Source of the DNA: Litorimonas cladophorae
GTDB taxonomy: Bacteria; Pseudomonadota; Alphaproteobacteria; Caulobacterales; Maricaulaceae
Length of the DNA stretch: 64,000 nt
NCBI RefSeq assembly: GCF_014652455.1
Contig: NZ_BMYV01000001.1
Span: 1,054,001-1,118,000, forward strand
Direction of reading: 5' to 3'
Of the stretch, positions 41 to 7,007 are shown in pieces (position 1 is the first letter of the stretch; each line of letters opens with the position of its first letter). Under the pieces are notes generated by a model. The model searched no databases, was not told where the DNA came from, and was given only the letters and a program-made list of their open reading frames with translations. The position numbers and the translations under genes were made by a program.

Positions 41-943
41 TTAAGCCCGGCCCAATGCGTAATTCATAATTTTATATGCCAATTTGGCCGCCAAGAAGTC
101 TGGCCCATGAAGTTTTTTTATCGGCGCCAGCTCATTAATGTCTGCACCCACGATTGTTCCGATTTCAGAGGCCGCTTTGATAATCGCCATGGCATCTTCC
201 CAGAATAAACCACCCGGTTCAGGCGTCCCTGTGGACGGCATGAGCGAGCTATCGAAACCGTCCAAATCAAAAGTGAGGTAAATCGGGCGCCCTTTTAACG
301 GTGCAACGATTTCATCCGCATTCCATTTAGCGCGATCTTTGCCCCAATGAATTGTGATGCGGTGCTTGTTCGCCTCGTAAAACGGGATCTCTTCTTTCGA
401 GATATTACGAATTCCGCAAGATACAATCGCGACAGTCGGGTGATCCAGCACGCGCCGAATAGCCGCCGCATGCGAAAAATGTTCTCCTTCATATCCATCG
501 CGAAGATCAGCGTGAGCATCAAAGTGCAGAATGATTAGGTCATCGAATTCCTTCAAGAAAGGCCGAATAGCGCCTGGCGTTATCGAATGCTCTCCGCCAA
601 AAACGAGTGGAAATTTCCCGTCTTTCAACACCGCAGTTGTCATCGCTTCGAGCGTCTTCAGCGTCGTTTCAATGTCAGAGTTATCGATCACAGGCTCTCG
701 CGCAGTCACAAGGCCATAGCGTTCAATCGGTTCACACCAGAGATCCTCGTCGAAGAGCTCAACTTCGTGACTAGCGGCGATCATAGCTGCTGGCCCGGCT
801 TCTGTCCCGCCGCCGTACGAGACCGAAGCCTCTAAACCAAAGGGGATGATAACCGCACCAGCTTCTTCATAAGAAACGGAATGCGCCTCTCCCAAGGAGA
901 GGAAGCCATCTTCAGATTTCAAGAGGGGGAATGGCGCTTTCAT
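41..943 (-). CDS. speB: Agmatinase / arginase-family ureohydrolase
   Basis: A 300-residue ureohydrolase, a cytoplasmic Mn2+ enzyme family that releases urea from guanidino compounds. The metal-binding signatures are visible: GGEHS (His119), HFDAHAD (Asp142, His144, Asp146) and FDLDGFD (Asp226, Asp228), plus the family TGTPEPGG loop near 238-245. I chose the ATG at 943 because it overlaps the stop of the upstream gene in an ATGA arrangement; a longer frame to 994 would run inside that gene. It is the third gene after ornithine decarboxylase and a deoxyhypusine-synthase homologue. The family assignment is secure. The substrate is not: with ornithine decarboxylase in the same operon, agmatine is not the obvious feed, and another guanidino compound or a guanidino-polyamine is possible. 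Confidence 0.85.
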   Translation of the reverse strand: MKAPFPLLKSEDGFLSLGEAHSVSYEEAGAVIIPFGLEASVSYGGGTEAGPAAMIAASHEVELFDEDLWCEPIERYGLVTAREPVIDNSDIETTLKTLEAMTTAVLKDGKFPLVFGGEHSITPGAIRPFLKEFDDLIILHFDAHADLRDGYEGEHFSHAAAIRRVLDHPTVAIVSCGIRNISKEEIPFYEANKHRITIHWGKDRAKWNADEIVAPLKGRPIYLTFDLDGFDSSLMPSTGTPEPGGLFWEDAMAIIKAASEIGTIVGADINELAPIKKLHGPDFLAAKLAYKIMNYALGRA

Positions 944-1968
944 TTCGCGAACATCTTTGCATATTCGCGACGTGGACGGTTTTTCCAATCGCAAGAGTGA
1001 TAGGCGTCAGACGCGAGCAATGGCACGACAGAACCTGCCTCTGCAAACACCATTTGCTCGAGCGTCGTTTGTACTTTGCCCCAACTTGCCGCTTCTTTGA
1101 GTGTTGAAGACGAACACGCGCCATCACGAACATCGGCAACAGAAATCTGGACCGCATATTTATGCATTTCAGCTTCTACACCAAGGATTTCCGCACAGAC
1201 GACTGTGTCTTGGACGAAGTTCTTTGGAACACCTCCACCAATCATCAGCAAGCCGGTTGAGCCAGCCTTAATCTTGACGTCAGTCAATTCACGGAAGTCT
1301 GCAACGCTATCGATGGAAAGGTAATTACCAGGGTTTTCGACCTGATGTTTCACCAAGCCGAACCCGGCCGAGCAATCCGAAAACGCAGGGACGAAAATCG
1401 GGACGTTATAGTCGTAGCATGTCTCAATCAGGCTACCCTTTTTAACCGCATGCGTTTTCAGCCATTTACCCATTTCCCAGATAAATTCCCGAGAAGAATA
1501 GGGGCGTCGCTCTAGGCTGTCTGTGATGTCTTTAATGACATGGTCACAAGCTTGCAGCTCTTCTTCGTCAATATAGGTGTCATAGATCCGATCGATGTAA
1601 AGATCGCGCAATTCATTGTCATCAACTTGGCTATCAGCTTGATAATGCTTGTACCCAAGGGCTTCAAAGAAATCCATGTCGACAATGGATGCGCCCGTTG
1701 AGACGATCGCGTCGACCATACCGTATTTCACGAGATCTCGGTAAACATGCATACATCCGCCCGCAGATGTTGACCCTGCTAACGTAAGAATGACGGAGCA
1801 TTCGGGATCGTTCACAGCCTGTTTAAAAATGTCTGTCGCCCGACCCAGATCACGCGCCGTGAAAGACATTTTGCCCATCGCTTCAATAATTGGGCGGGCG
1901 TCAATTTTCGTAATGTCGAAATGCTCCACTACATTGGAGAGCAATTGTGCTTTTGTATTTTTTGTCAT
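940..1968 (-). CDS. Deoxyhypusine synthase-like protein
   Basis: A 342-residue NAD-dependent aminobutyl-transferase homologue. In eukaryotes and archaea the family moves an aminobutyl group from spermidine to a lysine of eIF5A. Bacteria lack that substrate, so a small-molecule role such as homospermidine formation is likely (inference; plant homospermidine synthase is known to derive from this family). The catalytic-lysine region is conserved: SWGKV (Lys298) corresponds to VSWGKI around Lys329 of the human enzyme, and the preceding HKYAVQI segment also matches. Start at 1968 is supported by GAAGG seven bases upstream; the frame continues further up but into the preceding gene. It lies 10 bp after the ornithine decarboxylase and overlaps the next gene by 4 bp, so the three are surely co-transcribed. 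Confidence 0.85.
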   Translation of the reverse strand: MTKNTKAQLLSNVVEHFDITKIDARPIIEAMGKMSFTARDLGRATDIFKQAVNDPECSVILTLAGSTSAGGCMHVYRDLVKYGMVDAIVSTGASIVDMDFFEALGYKHYQADSQVDDNELRDLYIDRIYDTYIDEEELQACDHVIKDITDSLERRPYSSREFIWEMGKWLKTHAVKKGSLIETCYDYNVPIFVPAFSDCSAGFGLVKHQVENPGNYLSIDSVADFRELTDVKIKAGSTGLLMIGGGVPKNFVQDTVVCAEILGVEAEMHKYAVQISVADVRDGACSSSTLKEAASWGKVQTTLEQMVFAEAGSVVPLLASDAYHSCDWKNRPRREYAKMFAK

Positions 1969-1978
1969 GATATTACCT

Positions 1979-3175
1979 TCAGTCATCCAACAGAATGACG
2001 GTGTGTTGTGAGTGAAATCCGTTAAATTGAGTGGCAAGAGCTTGACCATATGCGCCCAAGTGTCCGACCTCGATCCAATCACCTTCGCAAGTATCTGCAG
2101 GAAGGTGGAAAGGGCCGATCATTGTGTCAGAACTGTCGCATGTGGGGCCGAAAAAGCGGAATCCGATGGTGTTTGCGCAAGGTGCAGGCGGACGATTTCT
2201 GAGGAGTTTGACTGGAAACTTCCAGCCAAACTGACCTGCGTCGAATAATGATCCATAAGTTCCATCATTGAGATATAGGTCTGAGCCTTTTCGAAGCTCC
2301 ACGCGTGTCAGAGTTGAGCCGCCTTCGGCACACAGCGCCCGACCTGGCTCGCCGTAAACGGCAATTGCGTCGAACCCGTGAGCTTTCACGCTTTGTCCGA
2401 TTGCGTCAAAGTAGTCCGACATTGGGGGAATTGGCATTTCTGGATAAGCAACGGGAAAGCCCCCTCCCACATCAATGGAATCCACTTTGACGCCTGCTGC
2501 ATCGACGACCCGGCGAGCAAACGCGATGGCTCTGTCATAATTATTGATGGCCAGGCATTGAGATCCAACGTGAAAACAAATGCCCAGCTTCGCCGCAACC
2601 GCGCGTGCTGAGATCAGTAAGCTGACAGCGGTGTCGTAGTCCGCTCCAAATTTACCTGACAAAGGCATCACTGCATCACCCTTTGGCAAAGCCAAGCGCA
2701 GGTGCAAACTTAGATCTGTTGCATCTTCAGTGGAGTCCAAAATTTTCTGAACCTCATCCGCGTGATCGAAAGAGAAATCTCGGACGCCCAATTCATATGC
2801 CCGAGCAATTGTGGCGCGGGACTTGATCGGATGCATCAAGAATAATTTCGCTGCGGGTAATAGATCCCGAACTAATTCAATCTCGCGGATCGAAGCCACG
2901 TCAAAATCACGGACACCCTCGTCCCATAGAATTTTGAGCAAAGACGGATGCGGATTCGCCTTCACCGCATACATCACTTCACCTGGGAAACCTGACACGA
3001 ATGTCCGCGCAGCCCGCTCAATTTTCCGTGGGTAAAGCACATAGATTTGGTCGTCACCGCGAAAGTCGGCGATAGCGTCTGATGCAGTAACATAGGTCGG
3101 CAATCCGTAAGGTTGGAGTTGCGTAGGTTGCTCGACAGACGGAGCGGTTGAAGCAGCGAGATAGGTATTCAACAT
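1979..3175 (-). CDS. Type III PLP-dependent ornithine decarboxylase
   Basis: A 398-residue decarboxylase of the Orn/DAP/Arg decarboxylase 2 family (alanine-racemase fold), expected to make putrescine from ornithine in the cytoplasm. The PLP lysine lies in YAVKAN (Lys72), the phosphate-binding loop is GGGFPVAYP, EPGR follows, and FGPTCDSSD carries the cysteine (Cys346) that contributes to the active site across the dimer in eukaryotic-type ornithine decarboxylases. Lysine or dual lysine/ornithine specificity cannot be excluded by eye. It is first in the polyamine operon. The ATG at 3175 follows a GGAA at normal spacing and sits below a self-complementary leader with an upstream ORF, described separately, suggesting control after transcription starts. 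Confidence 0.88.
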   Translation of the reverse strand: MLNTYLAASTAPSVEQPTQLQPYGLPTYVTASDAIADFRGDDQIYVLYPRKIERAARTFVSGFPGEVMYAVKANPHPSLLKILWDEGVRDFDVASIREIELVRDLLPAAKLFLMHPIKSRATIARAYELGVRDFSFDHADEVQKILDSTEDATDLSLHLRLALPKGDAVMPLSGKFGADYDTAVSLLISARAVAAKLGICFHVGSQCLAINNYDRAIAFARRVVDAAGVKVDSIDVGGGFPVAYPEMPIPPMSDYFDAIGQSVKAHGFDAIAVYGEPGRALCAEGGSTLTRVELRKGSDLYLNDGTYGSLFDAGQFGWKFPVKLLRNRPPAPCANTIGFRFFGPTCDSSDTMIGPFHLPADTCEGDWIEVGHLGAYGQALATQFNGFHSQHTVILLDD

Positions 3176-3247
3176 GATTGGAATTTCCGAAGAGCCCGGT
3201 TCAAAAAATAACGGGTCAAATTCTAGGAAATGACAAAATCAGGAGTG

Positions 3248-3328
3248 AGATTGTCAGCGGCGAGGTTGGGTCGGCGAGCTTAAGCCCGCACCTCACTACT
3301 GAGTTCCGCGATAGCGGCCTGACAATCT
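3248..3328 (-). promoter_or_regulatory. Structured leader RNA of the polyamine operon
   Basis: On the transcript, AGATTGTCAG (3328-3319) pairs perfectly with CTGACAATCT (3257-3248), closing an 81-nt domain. Inside are CCGC-TATC-GCGG, CTCA-GTAG-TGAG and the near-palindrome at 3289-3274 (eight pairs, one G-U). An alphaproteobacterial leader motif named speF has been described upstream of ornithine decarboxylase genes; whether this element matches it must be tested with the covariance model, as I do not recall the consensus well enough to claim it. Confidence 0.5.
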
Positions 3329-3417
3329 TGATGTTTAGACGACAGGAAGACCTCTCCCAACTGCGCCTGCAGTGAGATGGATGTAGGCTTAAGTCTGTGA
3401 TGCAAGGCCTTGGCCAT
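3280..3417 (-). CDS. Putative 45-residue leader peptide upstream of ornithine decarboxylase
   Basis: An ATG at 3417 opens a 45-codon frame ending in TAA at 3282-3280, about 105 bases before the decarboxylase start. The peptide begins MAKALHHRLKP and ends QAAIAELSSEVRA; it has no recognised domain. A GAGAG lies about nine bases upstream of the ATG. Its last 16 codons or so pass through the base-paired leader, and the stop codon falls in the centre of the hairpin at 3274-3289. That is the arrangement expected if ribosome position on the small frame controlled the downstream gene. Sequence alone shows only the open frame and the pairing; translation and regulation are inferred. Confidence 0.4.
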   Translation of the reverse strand: MAKALHHRLKPTSISLQAQLGEVFLSSKHQDCQAAIAELSSEVRA

Positions 3418-3779
3418 ACCACTAACTCTCAATTCCCGAACGTCCCCTTTGTGAAAAGGTGGTACGCAAACAAACTAAGACGCTACCGGCGGCTATTAGA
3501 TGATACTTGAGGCACCATCACGGCTGACAGATTTCCCATTCAATCACGCTAAAAAGCTGACTGTTCAGGGCTCGCTGTAGCTCGCTTTATCGTCAAACGG
3601 CGCGCTAAAGCAGAAATAAAAAACCTGCAAGCTTTTTTTTAACGCTTATGAAAAAATACTCACGGGAAAGCGAATGCACTCAAAAAAGAGATAGGTGGAC
3701 GCCGAATGTCTGATATAATTTGAAGCGTCGCCGTCGTTAGCAGACCGCCACGACAATCCTCTCTCTAGGTCAATTATCG
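3418..3779. other. Gene-free interval between polyamine leader and VirJ-like gene
   Basis: No credible coding frame or RNA is visible in these 362 bases. It must hold the divergent promoters of the polyamine operon and the VirJ-like gene. A run of nine T near 3647-3655 is not preceded by a convincing hairpin. Confidence 0.5.
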
Positions 3780-4391
3780 ATGAAATTTACATTGCACCGC
3801 ACGCAGACGACTGAAACCGATCGTTTCGTCTGCATCATCAGTGGTGACGGCCTTCTCAACCCTATCGCGAAAGCGTTGGCCGTCAGATTCGCGGGGGCTG
3901 GCTATGCAGCGGCACGCGTGAAAGCGATCGCGTATTTTTGGGACAAAAGATCTCCCCAACACATGTCCAAAGACCTGCAACGCTATATGCGACGGCGTTT
4001 GAAGCGTGTGCCTACGGCTCAATTCACCTTCGTCGGATACTCCTTTGGGGCTGGCACCCTACCTTTTGCTCTAAATCTACTCTCACCCCGGCTCAAAGAG
4101 CATATTGAAAAGGTGATTTTAATCGCTCCACCGGCACAAGCCGATTTCAAATTTTTCTTCAGAAGTTGGTTTCACAAACCGACGGAAAAGGCAAAAGCGA
4201 CAGCACCTGAAATCCAGCAATTATCGGAAGTAAAACCTGTCCTATACGTCTACGGAGAGGATGACTATGTCGGTGCGCGGGCGTATCTCAAACCTCACAA
4301 AAACCTCGAATTCATAAGCCTACCGGGTGGACATGATCTAAATAAAGATATGGACGGTCTGTTTTTCGCCATCATGAAATCGTCCGGCTGA
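3780..4391 (+). CDS. VirJ/AcvB-like serine hydrolase
   Basis: A 203-residue alpha/beta hydrolase of the VirJ/AcvB family. Agrobacterium AcvB and VirJ are known to hydrolyse lysyl-phosphatidylglycerol. Family landmarks are ISGDG near residue 20, YFWDKRSP at 52-59, the nucleophile motif GYSFG (Ser88) and a C-terminal GGHD with the catalytic histidine. VirJ and AcvB are periplasmic and carry signal peptides; here the protein starts directly with the hydrolase core, and the frame upstream of the ATG reaches a stop at 3738 with no other start, so no signal peptide is encoded. The neighbour, convergent and 18 bp away, is MprF, the enzyme that makes the likely substrate, which supports the assignment. 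Cytoplasmic action is an inference. Confidence 0.78.
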   Translation: MKFTLHRTQTTETDRFVCIISGDGLLNPIAKALAVRFAGAGYAAARVKAIAYFWDKRSPQHMSKDLQRYMRRRLKRVPTAQFTFVGYSFGAGTLPFALNLLSPRLKEHIEKVILIAPPAQADFKFFFRSWFHKPTEKAKATAPEIQQLSEVKPVLYVYGEDDYVGARAYLKPHKNLEFISLPGGHDLNKDMDGLFFAIMKSSG

Positions 4392-4409: not shown

Positions 4410-7007
4410 TTATTTCTGAATAATGCCGAGGATACCGCCACTGCTCAATAGCGCTAAATTCCCAAGCGCCACAGGCATGGTGAGTTGGCTTGGGGCCGCG
4501 ATGTAAACAGGCTCCCATTCTGGCGTGAACTTCTGCTTAAACGCTCGAAGGCCTTTGAATCCGTAAAACCGCCCGCCATGTTCAAAAATTAAAGCGCCAA
4601 GTTTCGTCATAAAGGGTGCAAGTTTATCCCCCTCTAAACCAGCCAAGGGTGCCATGCCGAGACTGAAGCGACCGTAACCTTCAGCTTTGGCCCACGAAAT
4701 GATTTCGGTGAACAAGTAGTCCATCAATCCGTTAATTTTAACGTCCTTATAGCGCATCAAATCGATGGATACTTCCGTCTTGCAATGGGTTGTCCATAAG
4801 TTAGCGAAAGCGATGATCTCACCTGCGCGACGCACAACGGCGACAGGTTGACGACTGAGAACATCCCGATCAAACCTACCCAACGAAAACTGCTTCTCTT
4901 TCCCTTGATGAGTTTCGAGCCAGTTTTGAGATACCCTTTCAAGGCGATCCATATCGTCGCTATCCACCGAAGGATACAGGATCTCAAACGCACAACCCTC
5001 ACGGAGGGCGCGGCTTTTGGAATTTCTTAACTCACTCCGCTTTTTACCCTCCATGGTGAAGTCATTTAGCGAAATCAGGGCCAGCTCGCCGATTTTCTGC
5101 AAAGCTAAGCCCGCATCTATGAAATCGGTCAGATCATCACCGCGCACCGCGTAAAAACAGGGCCAAGCATCCCACTGATCCGCCAGCTGACGGAATGTCC
5201 AAATCAACTCTTTGCGCTCGGCTGCCAAGCCAACAGGGTTTCCCATCACGACCCAAGTCCGCCCCTTAACACCATACATCAGAAAGGATTTTCCACTCTC
5301 TGAAAACAGAAATTGCTTATCGCCCATCAAAGCAAGGTTTGCATCACTTCCAACCTTCTCGGCCGTCTGTAGGACCGCACCTACCCTGTCCATCAAACTG
5401 TCATCTGATGCGGCGCGTCTCAGGTTTGGTGCGGGCTGTAACAACCGCCAAAAGCCATAAAAAGCGAAGAGAGTGCCAATTAAGACAAAGGCACGGAAAA
5501 ATCGAGAGACGTCACTTTCCAGCCCAAACTGCCACCAAAGATCAGCCTTATAGGGCTGGTCCAGATAGCTAAAAAAACCGATCCAAATGGCAAACCCAAT
5601 GGTTGTTAAAATAACGCCTAACCGCGGCAAGCTGAGCGGAATGTCGCGAATGCTCCCTTTTCGGTAGAAGGCACCCTTGGACGTGAAAAGACTGAAGCAA
5701 AGCACAAATAGAACAAATGCGCCTTTGGGATCAGCGCCTTTCAACAGGGTGAAAATAGCGCCCGCAAATAGAAAAATGACCGCGAGCGACCAAGCATTTT
5801 TAAGTCGCCGCCTTAGGCCCATTGCGACGATCAACAAGAGACTACCGATAAAACTGGCCGTCAAATGAGAGAATTCCGTGACAGCGAGACTAAACCCCGC
5901 GCCTAAAAACGGGAGGCTCGCAAACGAGTTAGGCGTCGCCGCAGAGATAAGCATTGCGCCGCCCGTTAGAAAAATCAGAACGGCATACAGAGGCGGGGCA
6001 ATAAGTTCGAAGACATCTAGAACTTTCGTACTGCCACGCGCGACTTGCCCTGTAAAAGGACGCGCTTTCATAAAGCCCGTTATGACAGCTGATAAGATAA
6101 GCGGCGTAAAGAAGTAAAGGCCACGGTAAGCGATCAGGGCAACCATCAGGTCGACTGGGTTGGTGTTTACAAATAAAACAAAACAAGTGGCCTCAAAAAC
6201 CCCAATACCGCCCGGCAACCCGCTCAACCGGCCAAGGCTATGGGCGATGACAAACCCAGCGAGAAACCAAGAAAGACTATTACCGATTCCGTTCCCAAGG
6301 CAGACATATAGAGCCCCTGCGGCAGCCAGCCATTTTGCCAATCCAAGCAGGAGCGATATTCCAAAGGAACTTGACATAACCCCCGCAAGGGACGGCTCTT
6401 CAAAACTCAAACGCCGCCTTGAGATTGCGACAGAGGTCGCGCTTAAAATCATGCAGACAACGTAAACGATGAATGAATTGACTTTCAATTCAGAACTGAT
6501 CTCACCTTGAGCCACGATTAAGGACAGAACCAAAAGCGCTATTCCGCTCATAAAAATCGAGAGTTGATTACGTTGGCCCAATCTTGCCAAATCAAGAGGT
6601 GTCATTGACCAAGCACTAAAAAGTCGATCTCGAAGGTCTGGACCTGCGAGGGAGCCCATAGTGGTGATGTTGGAAACTGCATTCGCCACAAATGCCAAAG
6701 CTATGCGTCTGGAGCGAGACATCCTTGAGGGCTCAGGAGCGCCAGTGGCGTCCTCAAAACTGGCTATCCCGAATCCGAGAATCATCAAAACAAAAGAAAT
6801 GGCCAGCGTCGTGAAGGTTAACTGACCCAACGCCTGTACCGTTTCACCATAGGATACCGTCTGAATCTGACGCCAGATCACAAACAGAGACCCGATGAAA
6901 AGGCATACACCCAAAGCGACCGCAAGTGTGGTTTTCCACCGCAAAACGCGGCGTGGCACCTGACCAATCACCGTGTCGGGCTCAATGCCAATTTGAAATT
7001 TTTGCAA
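4410..7007 (-). CDS. mprF: Bifunctional lysyl-phosphatidylglycerol synthase/flippase MprF
   Basis: An 865-residue inner-membrane protein. About the first 530 residues form many transmembrane helices (flippase and TM domain, with the SLGRLSGLPGGIGVFE loop typical of the family). The last 330 residues form the cytoplasmic GNAT-like DUF2156 aminoacyl-transferase domain, with motifs such as VVMGNPVG and GRFSLGMAPL. MprF uses lysyl-tRNA (or alanyl-tRNA) to modify phosphatidylglycerol and flips the product outward, reducing surface negative charge and protecting against cationic peptides. In rhizobia and Agrobacterium the homologue LpiA is paired with AcvB; here the partner is the convergent gene next door. 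Lysine versus alanine specificity cannot be read from sequence. Length and start match the family. Confidence 0.92.
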   Translation of the reverse strand: MQKFQIGIEPDTVIGQVPRRVLRWKTTLAVALGVCLFIGSLFVIWRQIQTVSYGETVQALGQLTFTTLAISFVLMILGFGIASFEDATGAPEPSRMSRSRRIALAFVANAVSNITTMGSLAGPDLRDRLFSAWSMTPLDLARLGQRNQLSIFMSGIALLVLSLIVAQGEISSELKVNSFIVYVVCMILSATSVAISRRRLSFEEPSLAGVMSSSFGISLLLGLAKWLAAAGALYVCLGNGIGNSLSWFLAGFVIAHSLGRLSGLPGGIGVFEATCFVLFVNTNPVDLMVALIAYRGLYFFTPLILSAVITGFMKARPFTGQVARGSTKVLDVFELIAPPLYAVLIFLTGGAMLISAATPNSFASLPFLGAGFSLAVTEFSHLTASFIGSLLLIVAMGLRRRLKNAWSLAVIFLFAGAIFTLLKGADPKGAFVLFVLCFSLFTSKGAFYRKGSIRDIPLSLPRLGVILTTIGFAIWIGFFSYLDQPYKADLWWQFGLESDVSRFFRAFVLIGTLFAFYGFWRLLQPAPNLRRAASDDSLMDRVGAVLQTAEKVGSDANLALMGDKQFLFSESGKSFLMYGVKGRTWVVMGNPVGLAAERKELIWTFRQLADQWDAWPCFYAVRGDDLTDFIDAGLALQKIGELALISLNDFTMEGKKRSELRNSKSRALREGCAFEILYPSVDSDDMDRLERVSQNWLETHQGKEKQFSLGRFDRDVLSRQPVAVVRRAGEIIAFANLWTTHCKTEVSIDLMRYKDVKINGLMDYLFTEIISWAKAEGYGRFSLGMAPLAGLEGDKLAPFMTKLGALIFEHGGRFYGFKGLRAFKQKFTPEWEPVYIAAPSQLTMPVALGNLALLSSGGILGIIQK

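Follow-up and report, generated by a model that had tools for sequence, protein, structure and literature searches.

The 64-kb stretch of DNA analysed here (the window) carries on its minus strand a polyamine operon, in which a leader is followed by a decarboxylase gene, a gene of the deoxyhypusine-synthase (DHS) family and a gene for an agmatinase-family hydrolase. The features of this region, in the order of transcription, are:

3602-3630, minus strand: promoter-like stretch TTGCAG ... TAGCGC, a weak candidate recognised by eye
3471-3595, minus strand: conserved 5' RNA domain of about 125 nt, modelled as a three-way junction (covariance model R1, pair counts)
3418-3490, minus strand: predicted alternative pairing of 3490-3472 with the initiation region 3435-3418, enclosing a variable hairpin (MFE, duplex test)
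3426-3430, minus strand: GAGAG, resembling a Shine-Dalgarno sequence, of the small frame (sequence)
3280-3417, minus strand: leader peptide gene of 45 codons and a TAA stop, with the conserved core at its C-terminal end (28 codons; tblastn, profile, pN/pS)
3255-3301, minus strand: hairpin around the stop codon of the small frame (folding against shuffles, conserved CGG codon)
3231-3256, minus strand: hairpin of TGACAA (3256-3251) with TTGTCA (3236-3231) (folds)
3183-3231, minus strand: hairpin over the ribosome-binding site of the decarboxylase (folds)
1979-3175, minus strand: PLP-dependent decarboxylase of the alanine-racemase fold type, probable ornithine decarboxylase (ODC) (Pfam, NCBIfam, solved relatives)
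940-2082, minus strand: deoxyhypusine-synthase family gene, above the cut-off of the NCBIfam 1,9-bis(guanidino)-5-aza-nonane synthase (567.6 bits against 500); this is the longest frame and the true start probably lies further in
41-994, minus strand: agmatinase-family hydrolase, above the cut-off of the agmatinase model TIGR01230 (204.7 bits against 174.3)

The decarboxylase scored below every NCBIfam equivalog cut-off, and its best solved relatives were lysine/ornithine decarboxylases. By these sequence comparisons it is probably an ODC, with ornithine and arginine both as candidate substrates; the assignments of the neighbouring genes leave both in play, which bears on the guess at a ligand given below. 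The DHS-like gene adjoined the decarboxylase in 14 of the 15 loci of the peptide-bearing clade and in 22 of the 27 examined loci of the other decarboxylase clade, and the third operon gene was present in 11 of the former 15, these loci being short. Going by the NCBIfam name of the second gene, the "ODC" and "deoxyhypusine synthase" genes could form an agmatine-based homospermidine route. In Thermus, an agmatine-coupling enzyme is described as making such a guanidopolyamine en route to homospermidine (PMC10981699). On the plus strand, the divergent neighbour of the leader (3780-4391) gave a Pfam match of the VirJ-type alpha/beta-hydrolase kind and lies beside an LPG-synthase-domain gene (4410-7007).

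The promoter-like stretch aligned by eye with a CTTGC-N(~17)-TWAAT pattern of the relatives, and it weakly suggests a transcript start just 5' of the RNA domain. No sigma-70-type site came out of a consensus scan of 3100-3800, and no intrinsic terminator was found on the strand of the leader in the same interval, where one terminator-like site lay on the opposite strand.

The small frame starts with ATG (3417-3415), ends with TAA (3282-3280) and encodes 45 residues. When these were used as a tblastn query (E 0.1 or better), matches were obtained in 13 of 137 genomes of the same family, the window's own included. The frame lay just upstream of the decarboxylase in 12 of the 13; in the other (L021) the contig stops shortly after the small frame and no decarboxylase was found. 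A profile search of 398 genomes of the order added three loci in a second family, and the same three, each upstream of the decarboxylase, were obtained from all 62 genomes of that family searched. This gave 16 distinct peptide loci, 15 of them upstream of the same decarboxylase.

The 28-codon C-terminal core was open and free of indels at all 16 loci. Its pN/pS was 0.375 in frame against 1.08 and 1.29 in the other frames, a value reached by none of 300 column permutations, and third codon positions were the most variable (mean entropy 1.15 against 0.56 and 0.53). An earlier, sequence-only reading of this DNA had proposed a 45-codon frame with its own start in the leader of the polyamine operon. 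The purifying selection on the core upholds that proposal, including the synonymous bias by which it was to be checked; no orthologue breaks the frame within the core, and one locus (L018) is without the ATG. The frame 3417-3280 is a genuine conserved gene.

Conservation was uneven along the peptide. Residues Q19, F24, L25, S26, E38 and R44 were invariant in the 14 rows of alignment A2, and the N-terminal third varied among loci. The tail after R44 also varied (RA, RAA, RAL, RG, RE or RAAPA), as did the stop codon (TAA, TAG or TGA). The codon of R44 was CGG at 16 of 16 loci, so that part of the C-terminal conservation is conservation of RNA. In L079 and L081 the Shine-Dalgarno sequence of the small frame was GAGGAG. 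Profile scans gave no match of the peptide to a family or a solved structure below E 0.03, and none on plasmids.

The distribution of the peptide followed that of the decarboxylase. In the window's family a decarboxylase was found at E 1e-60 or better in 60 of 137 genomes; the peptide was present in all 12 whose enzyme was at least 55% identical to that of the window and absent from the remaining 48 (51% identity or less). The second family had a decarboxylase in 39 of 62 genomes, the peptide occurring in the three at 64-65% identity and in none of the 36 at 53% or less. Over both families, 15 of 15 genomes with a decarboxylase at least 55% identical carried the peptide, against 0 of 84 with a less similar one; the genome of L021, with its cut contig, has the peptide and no decarboxylase over the 55% limit. 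The peptide is thus strictly associated with one decarboxylase clade. Named carriers were Hellea MAGs (Hellea being placed in Alphaproteobacteria, Maricaulales), Algimonas arctica, a Marinicaulis MAG and uncultured relatives; the locus of A. arctica (L075) was identical to L022, from a genome of the window's genus. Within that genus, a decarboxylase (E 1e-60) was found in only 4 of 17 other genomes and the same four carry the peptide, which makes the distribution of operon and leader patchy.

Among 289 genomes of the class, only the window's own matched the peptide profile clearly. Nine weak class-wide matches (E 0.006-0.045; L054-L062) were discarded, as no decarboxylase was present in the fetched loci, and two further weak matches, G061 (E 0.012) and L087, had no operon gene in theirs. 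A 23-base match in the window's own genome, considered as a second copy of the leader, fell in a stretch without one.

Strict association with one clade and strong purifying selection could also be expected if the 45 residues formed a free protein that acts in trans, its target being for example the decarboxylase, in the manner of an antizyme, and the AlphaFold2 model of the peptide is a single helix. That model is of low confidence (mean pLDDT 70, pTM 0.31) and comes with no family match; moreover, the N-terminal third is unconserved, the stop codon is built into an RNA hairpin and the frame always lies in the leader wherever genes are visible. A trans-acting role is accordingly regarded as very improbable.

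The RNA domain at 3595-3471, upstream of the frame, is conserved. Near-invariant blocks lie between hairpins that vary in sequence and length. The pairs of the junction are P1a (3594-3591/3482-3479), P1b (3585-3583/3491-3489), P2 (3581-3575/3530-3523) and a set of CCC/GGG pairs (3570-3568/3537-3535), and its variable parts are P2b and P3 (about 3519-3499). P2b hairpins were observed in all 14 loci looked at, L079 being outside these folds. A conserved core with varying peripheral hairpins, as seen in the alignments, is the arrangement that riboswitches have. The sequence-only reading had confined the leader to 3176-3417: what it placed there, a leader peptide and a stop hairpin, stands, while the extent was too short. 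The conserved leader begins near 3595, and its strongest RNA element, upstream at 3595-3471, had been missed.

In 12 sequences, the junction model paired 98.3% of cells against 92.4% in shuffles, with 14 double-change cells against 5.6 and a covariation score of 0.153 against 0.079; none of 500 shuffles was as high on any of these three measures. The pairs with double changes (4 against 3.4; 250/500 shuffles) and the pair types (8 against 8.3; 406/500) were not above shuffles. Sliding the junction partners lowered pairing to 27-41%. All of the double changes fell in P3, which covaried at four of four pairs. P1a, P1b and the CCC/GGG pairs never vary, and covariation therefore says nothing on them. 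The RNAalifold covariation term on alignment A3 was about zero and slightly unfavourable (+0.13), and four domain sequences folded alone were barely more stable than shuffles (z -0.10 to -1.85).

Covariance model R1 scored the window at 127.5 bits and matched all but one of the 16 peptide loci (44.6-131.5 bits), 12 of the 15 matched loci having been in the model itself; L079, L017 and L022 lay outside the model alignment (A4) and were searched with R1. The locus missed was L023, which has the peptide without a recognisable RNA domain and was excluded from all RNA-domain work; the domain of L079 is shortened. Over the 289 genomes of the class, R1 found the window's genome and one weak match in an apparently unrelated coding stretch. 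Over the 137 genomes of the family it found 12 strong matches (E 2e-12 or better) and one weak one, and over the 62 of the second family three strong ones (E 2.3e-10 or better) and three weak places; searches of more than 40 genomes were strictly filtered, so that weak relatives of the domain could be lost from these counts. Every strong match in the three sets was a peptide locus. The weak matches L101, L113 and L117-L119 were set aside, having no operon gene in the fetched loci. Scanned against Rfam, the window region and two relatives had no matches beyond implausible ones below threshold. A second small frame within the RNA domain, starting ATGGGAAATCTG, was also rejected on inspection by eye, its ATG being absent in L017, L022 and L082 and its ends differing.

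The strand 3490-3472, which comprises the 3' strand of P1 and what follows it, can pair with the initiation region of the small frame (3435-3418). The segment UCUUGGUUUU, directly 3' of the junction, pairs there with the stretch bearing the Shine-Dalgarno sequence. This pairing is predicted to exclude P1, so that the junction and the hidden start would be mutually exclusive. The outer helix reached at least 9 bp in 13 of 15 loci. Pairing was stronger with a locus's own arm than with permuted arms (means of -9.4 and -8.1 kcal/mol; 0 of 5000 permutations), a difference to which L082 and L018, the latter with an assumed start for want of an ATG, contribute much. The own arm beat the mean of the arms of other loci in 10 of 15 loci and did not in five. 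Whole-leader folds placed the junction-closing strand against the initiation region in 13 of 15 loci; the pairing was partial in L081 and L082, and L018 and L022 keep the strand in the domain. Forcing P1a cost 5.9-13.9 kcal/mol over the 15 loci, a cost at which the junction would not be favoured without a ligand. The duplex of the window (-22.2 kcal/mol) was matched by none of 500 shuffled sites and none of 42 other gene starts, and across the loci, 8 of 15 have a duplex that ranks among the best 5% of shuffles and 7 do not. On the duplex and fold results together, the predicted two-state picture is well supported for the window and about half of the loci.

These predictions bear on a different role for the 5' RNA, namely that of a binding site for a protein or a small RNA, or of an element for structure or stability, through which the small frame would be regulated while the RNA alone senses nothing. 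Such a role would suit the absence of a known ligand and the weakness of P1 against the alternative helix, and the speF element of Agrobacterium is reported to have bound none of the pathway metabolites tried (PMC1273637). A conserved unpaired core between freely varying hairpins is, on the other hand, the pattern of known aptamers, and the association with one pathway is narrow; an RNA that senses nothing is therefore considered quite unlikely.

The small frame ends in a conserved hairpin, which surrounds the stop codon. In the window, a 6-bp inner stem with one G-U pair (3289-3284/3279-3274) holds the TAA at its loop, and outer pairs follow at 3296-3290/3266-3260 and 3301-3298/3258-3255. Every one of the 16 loci has a stop zone that folds more stably than its shuffles (z -0.08 to -4.20, with a mean near -1.8 and several single-locus values close to zero), in agreement with the hairpin at 3289-3274, centred on the stop codon, that had been read from the sequence. 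A CCCGC-like arm was observed by eye 3' of the stop in 14 of 16 loci, the exceptions being L021, where it precedes the stop, and L022, where it lies in another register. In L012, L013 and L017 the stop stem is longer, with additional bases in both strands that are complementary. When only the short arms were shuffled, a test that is powerless for single loci, the result was not significant.

The sequence-only reading had closed a domain around this hairpin with a 10-bp stem. In the window, 3328-3319 (AGATTGTCAG) is perfectly complementary to 3257-3248 (CTGACAATCT), and as a Watson-Crick helix of at least 10 bp arose in 3 of 300 dinucleotide shuffles of 3176-3417, the pairing is unusual. The other 15 loci have no helix longer than 5-8 bp between these zones, which is no better than shuffles, and the 10-bp stem recurred in none of them. 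That reading had named two losses among orthologues as counting against it, that of the frame and that of the closing stem; the stem, present in the window, is without conservation and was rejected as a conserved element. Its 3' arm is taken up by the TGACAA/TTGTCA hairpin, found in close relatives only. The hairpin over the decarboxylase ribosome-binding site pairs ATTTCC (3231-3226) with GGAAAT (3188-3183) and CCCG (3215-3212) with CGGG (3198-3195), and was similar in close relatives and not family-wide.

It had further been supposed that ribosome occupancy would remodel the leader. Simulated ribosomes at the stop or on the core gave no consistent opening of the ODC ribosome-binding site in 14 loci (L079 and L023 were left out, and decarboxylase starts outside the window were chosen by us for the downstream folds and for this simulation), and opening of the ODC start by ribosomes was thereby ruled out as a family-wide rule. 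Between the two frames, C outnumbers G in 14 of 16 loci, a bias that would suit Rho and proves nothing.

In arrest peptides, conservation is concentrated in the C-terminal part near the stop. The window's peptide could likewise be the sensor itself, with its nascent chain arrested by ornithine, arginine or a polyamine in the logic of SpeFL or TnaC and the RNA tuning initiation. This would fit a sequence that is conserved mainly over its last 28 residues, up to the stop, and variable in its N-terminal third, as well as a stop codon set in a conserved hairpin. Less easily fitted are the residues after R44, which vary in number and kind before any of three stop codons; this variable tail speaks against arrest exactly at the stop codon. 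The constant CGG makes some of the C-terminal conservation a matter of RNA, and the RNA domain is conserved beyond what mere tuning would need. Sensing by the peptide is thus thought unlikely, without being negligible.

The reading that we favour is a two-stage cis-regulatory leader, in which a riboswitch-like RNA gates a leader peptide that controls the polyamine operon. It is held tentatively, at just short of an even chance, because the mixed results of the arm permutation and of the duplex shuffles were counted fully. In the first stage, the RNA domain, with which the transcript probably begins, would adopt either the three-way junction or the alternative, in which its 3' strand covers the Shine-Dalgarno sequence and the start codon of the small frame. 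The small frame would be freed for translation by a signal that stabilises the junction; a metabolite of the arginine/ornithine/polyamine pathway is the likeliest candidate. In the second stage, ribosomes translating the 45-codon peptide would reach and open the hairpin holding the stop codon, and from the end of the small frame they would decide whether transcription and translation continue into the decarboxylase, either through Rho or through a change of structure, in the way described for Salmonella orf34-speF. The ribosome may be slowed by the 28 conserved C-terminal residues. The ligand, the stalling, the part of Rho and the direction of the response are what we infer from the arrangement of the leader. 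The stronger claim, that this is a new riboswitch class which binds a metabolite of the arginine/polyamine pathway and switches on a leader peptide that licenses the operon, is possible and more doubtful. Its ligand would perhaps be a guanidino compound, a guess based on the bis-guanidino-azanonane synthase and agmatinase genes of the operon.

Several known leaders share parts of this design. The mgtL/mgtA system combines a structured leader, a short leader peptide and Rho. The window's leader likewise joins structure with a short peptide, Rho being only proposed here, but signal, peptide and genes are others, and its RNA precedes the small frame, whose start it is predicted to cover. The SpeF decarboxylase belongs to a fold family other than the alanine-racemase type of the window's enzyme. 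Nevertheless, the context of SpeFL/orf34 is shared, with a small frame, conserved in its C-terminal part, upstream of a probable ODC gene. In Salmonella, translation of orf34 is described as blocking Rho and unfolding a structure that hides the start of the enzyme; a hairpin lies downstream of the stop, and the peptide has 34 residues with two consecutive Arg codons (PMC6386406). Like orf34 (SpeFL of E. coli), the window's frame encodes a short peptide, belongs to the long, structured leader upstream of an ODC gene and has a hairpin at or after its stop. An effect of its translation on both transcription and translation of the enzyme, as for orf34, is a likeness by proposal only. The window's peptide differs in having 45 residues and none of the consecutive Arg codons reported for orf34, in line with what the sequence-only reading had said of SpeFL, and its leader is alphaproteobacterial and preceded by an RNA domain predicted to cover the peptide start. 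The resemblance to orf34 is one of logic, not of membership. The spermidine riboswitch, described as a SAM-I variant (PMC10853860), is also an RNA leader of polyamine-related genes, but its aptamer is of the SAM-I type, and no SAM family was among the Rfam matches up to E 10 in the window region and two relatives.

The alphaproteobacterial speF element is described as a long conserved RNA near the putative transcript start, upstream of a COG0019 decarboxylase (PMC1273637). The window's leader also precedes a COG0019-type decarboxylase in alphaproteobacteria, the same kind of place, and the sequence-only reading had connected it with that motif; it might then be a divergent member of the Rfam family (RF00518). 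No match to RF00518 was obtained in 3100-3800 at E up to 10, nor any in the window's genome, and R1 in turn missed six RF00518 loci, whose decarboxylases were 30-34% identical to that of the window. Sequence and structure model thus differ in both directions, membership was rejected and the connection was dropped. The description of RF00518, as far as it goes, is one without a conserved peptide (PMC1273637), while the window's leader has one. Already disfavoured, a divergent speF element is the least credible of the explanations, to the point of being barely worth entertaining. The six RF00518 leaders (L063-L068), four of them above Rfam's cut-off, share a conserved block, AGCAACGACGG...GGGCTTTTTTGGTCTC...GAAGAGGC; a conserved peptide inside them was considered and discarded, as indels in the block break the frame and argue against coding.

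No description of the window's leader was recognised in the open-licence full-text literature searched, and no family of Rfam 15 matched it. Peptide-leader control of polyamine genes has been worked out in enterobacteria, and the ligand of the alphaproteobacterial speF RNA was, as far as its 2005 description goes, not known. In the window's independent and compact leader the two ideas come together: the RNA is structured, and it can cover the start of a conserved peptide gene. With its defined strands, its peptide core and its natural variants, one locus without recognisable RNA and one with a shortened RNA, polyamine sensing in these bacteria becomes directly testable.

Additionally, the leaders of the other decarboxylase clade were found to carry a different short frame. 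In L036-L053, from the window's family, a frame MPDWVN with a strong Shine-Dalgarno sequence (GGCGGAGG) lies at the start of the decarboxylase. It was observed in 17 of the 27 examined loci of that clade and in 0 of the 9 among them from the second family. Eleven of these 17 loci have it as a closed frame of 12 codons, MPDWVNxxQGV[TS]; it is shorter in two and runs on in four, so the block of nucleotides may be of greater importance than the frame itself.
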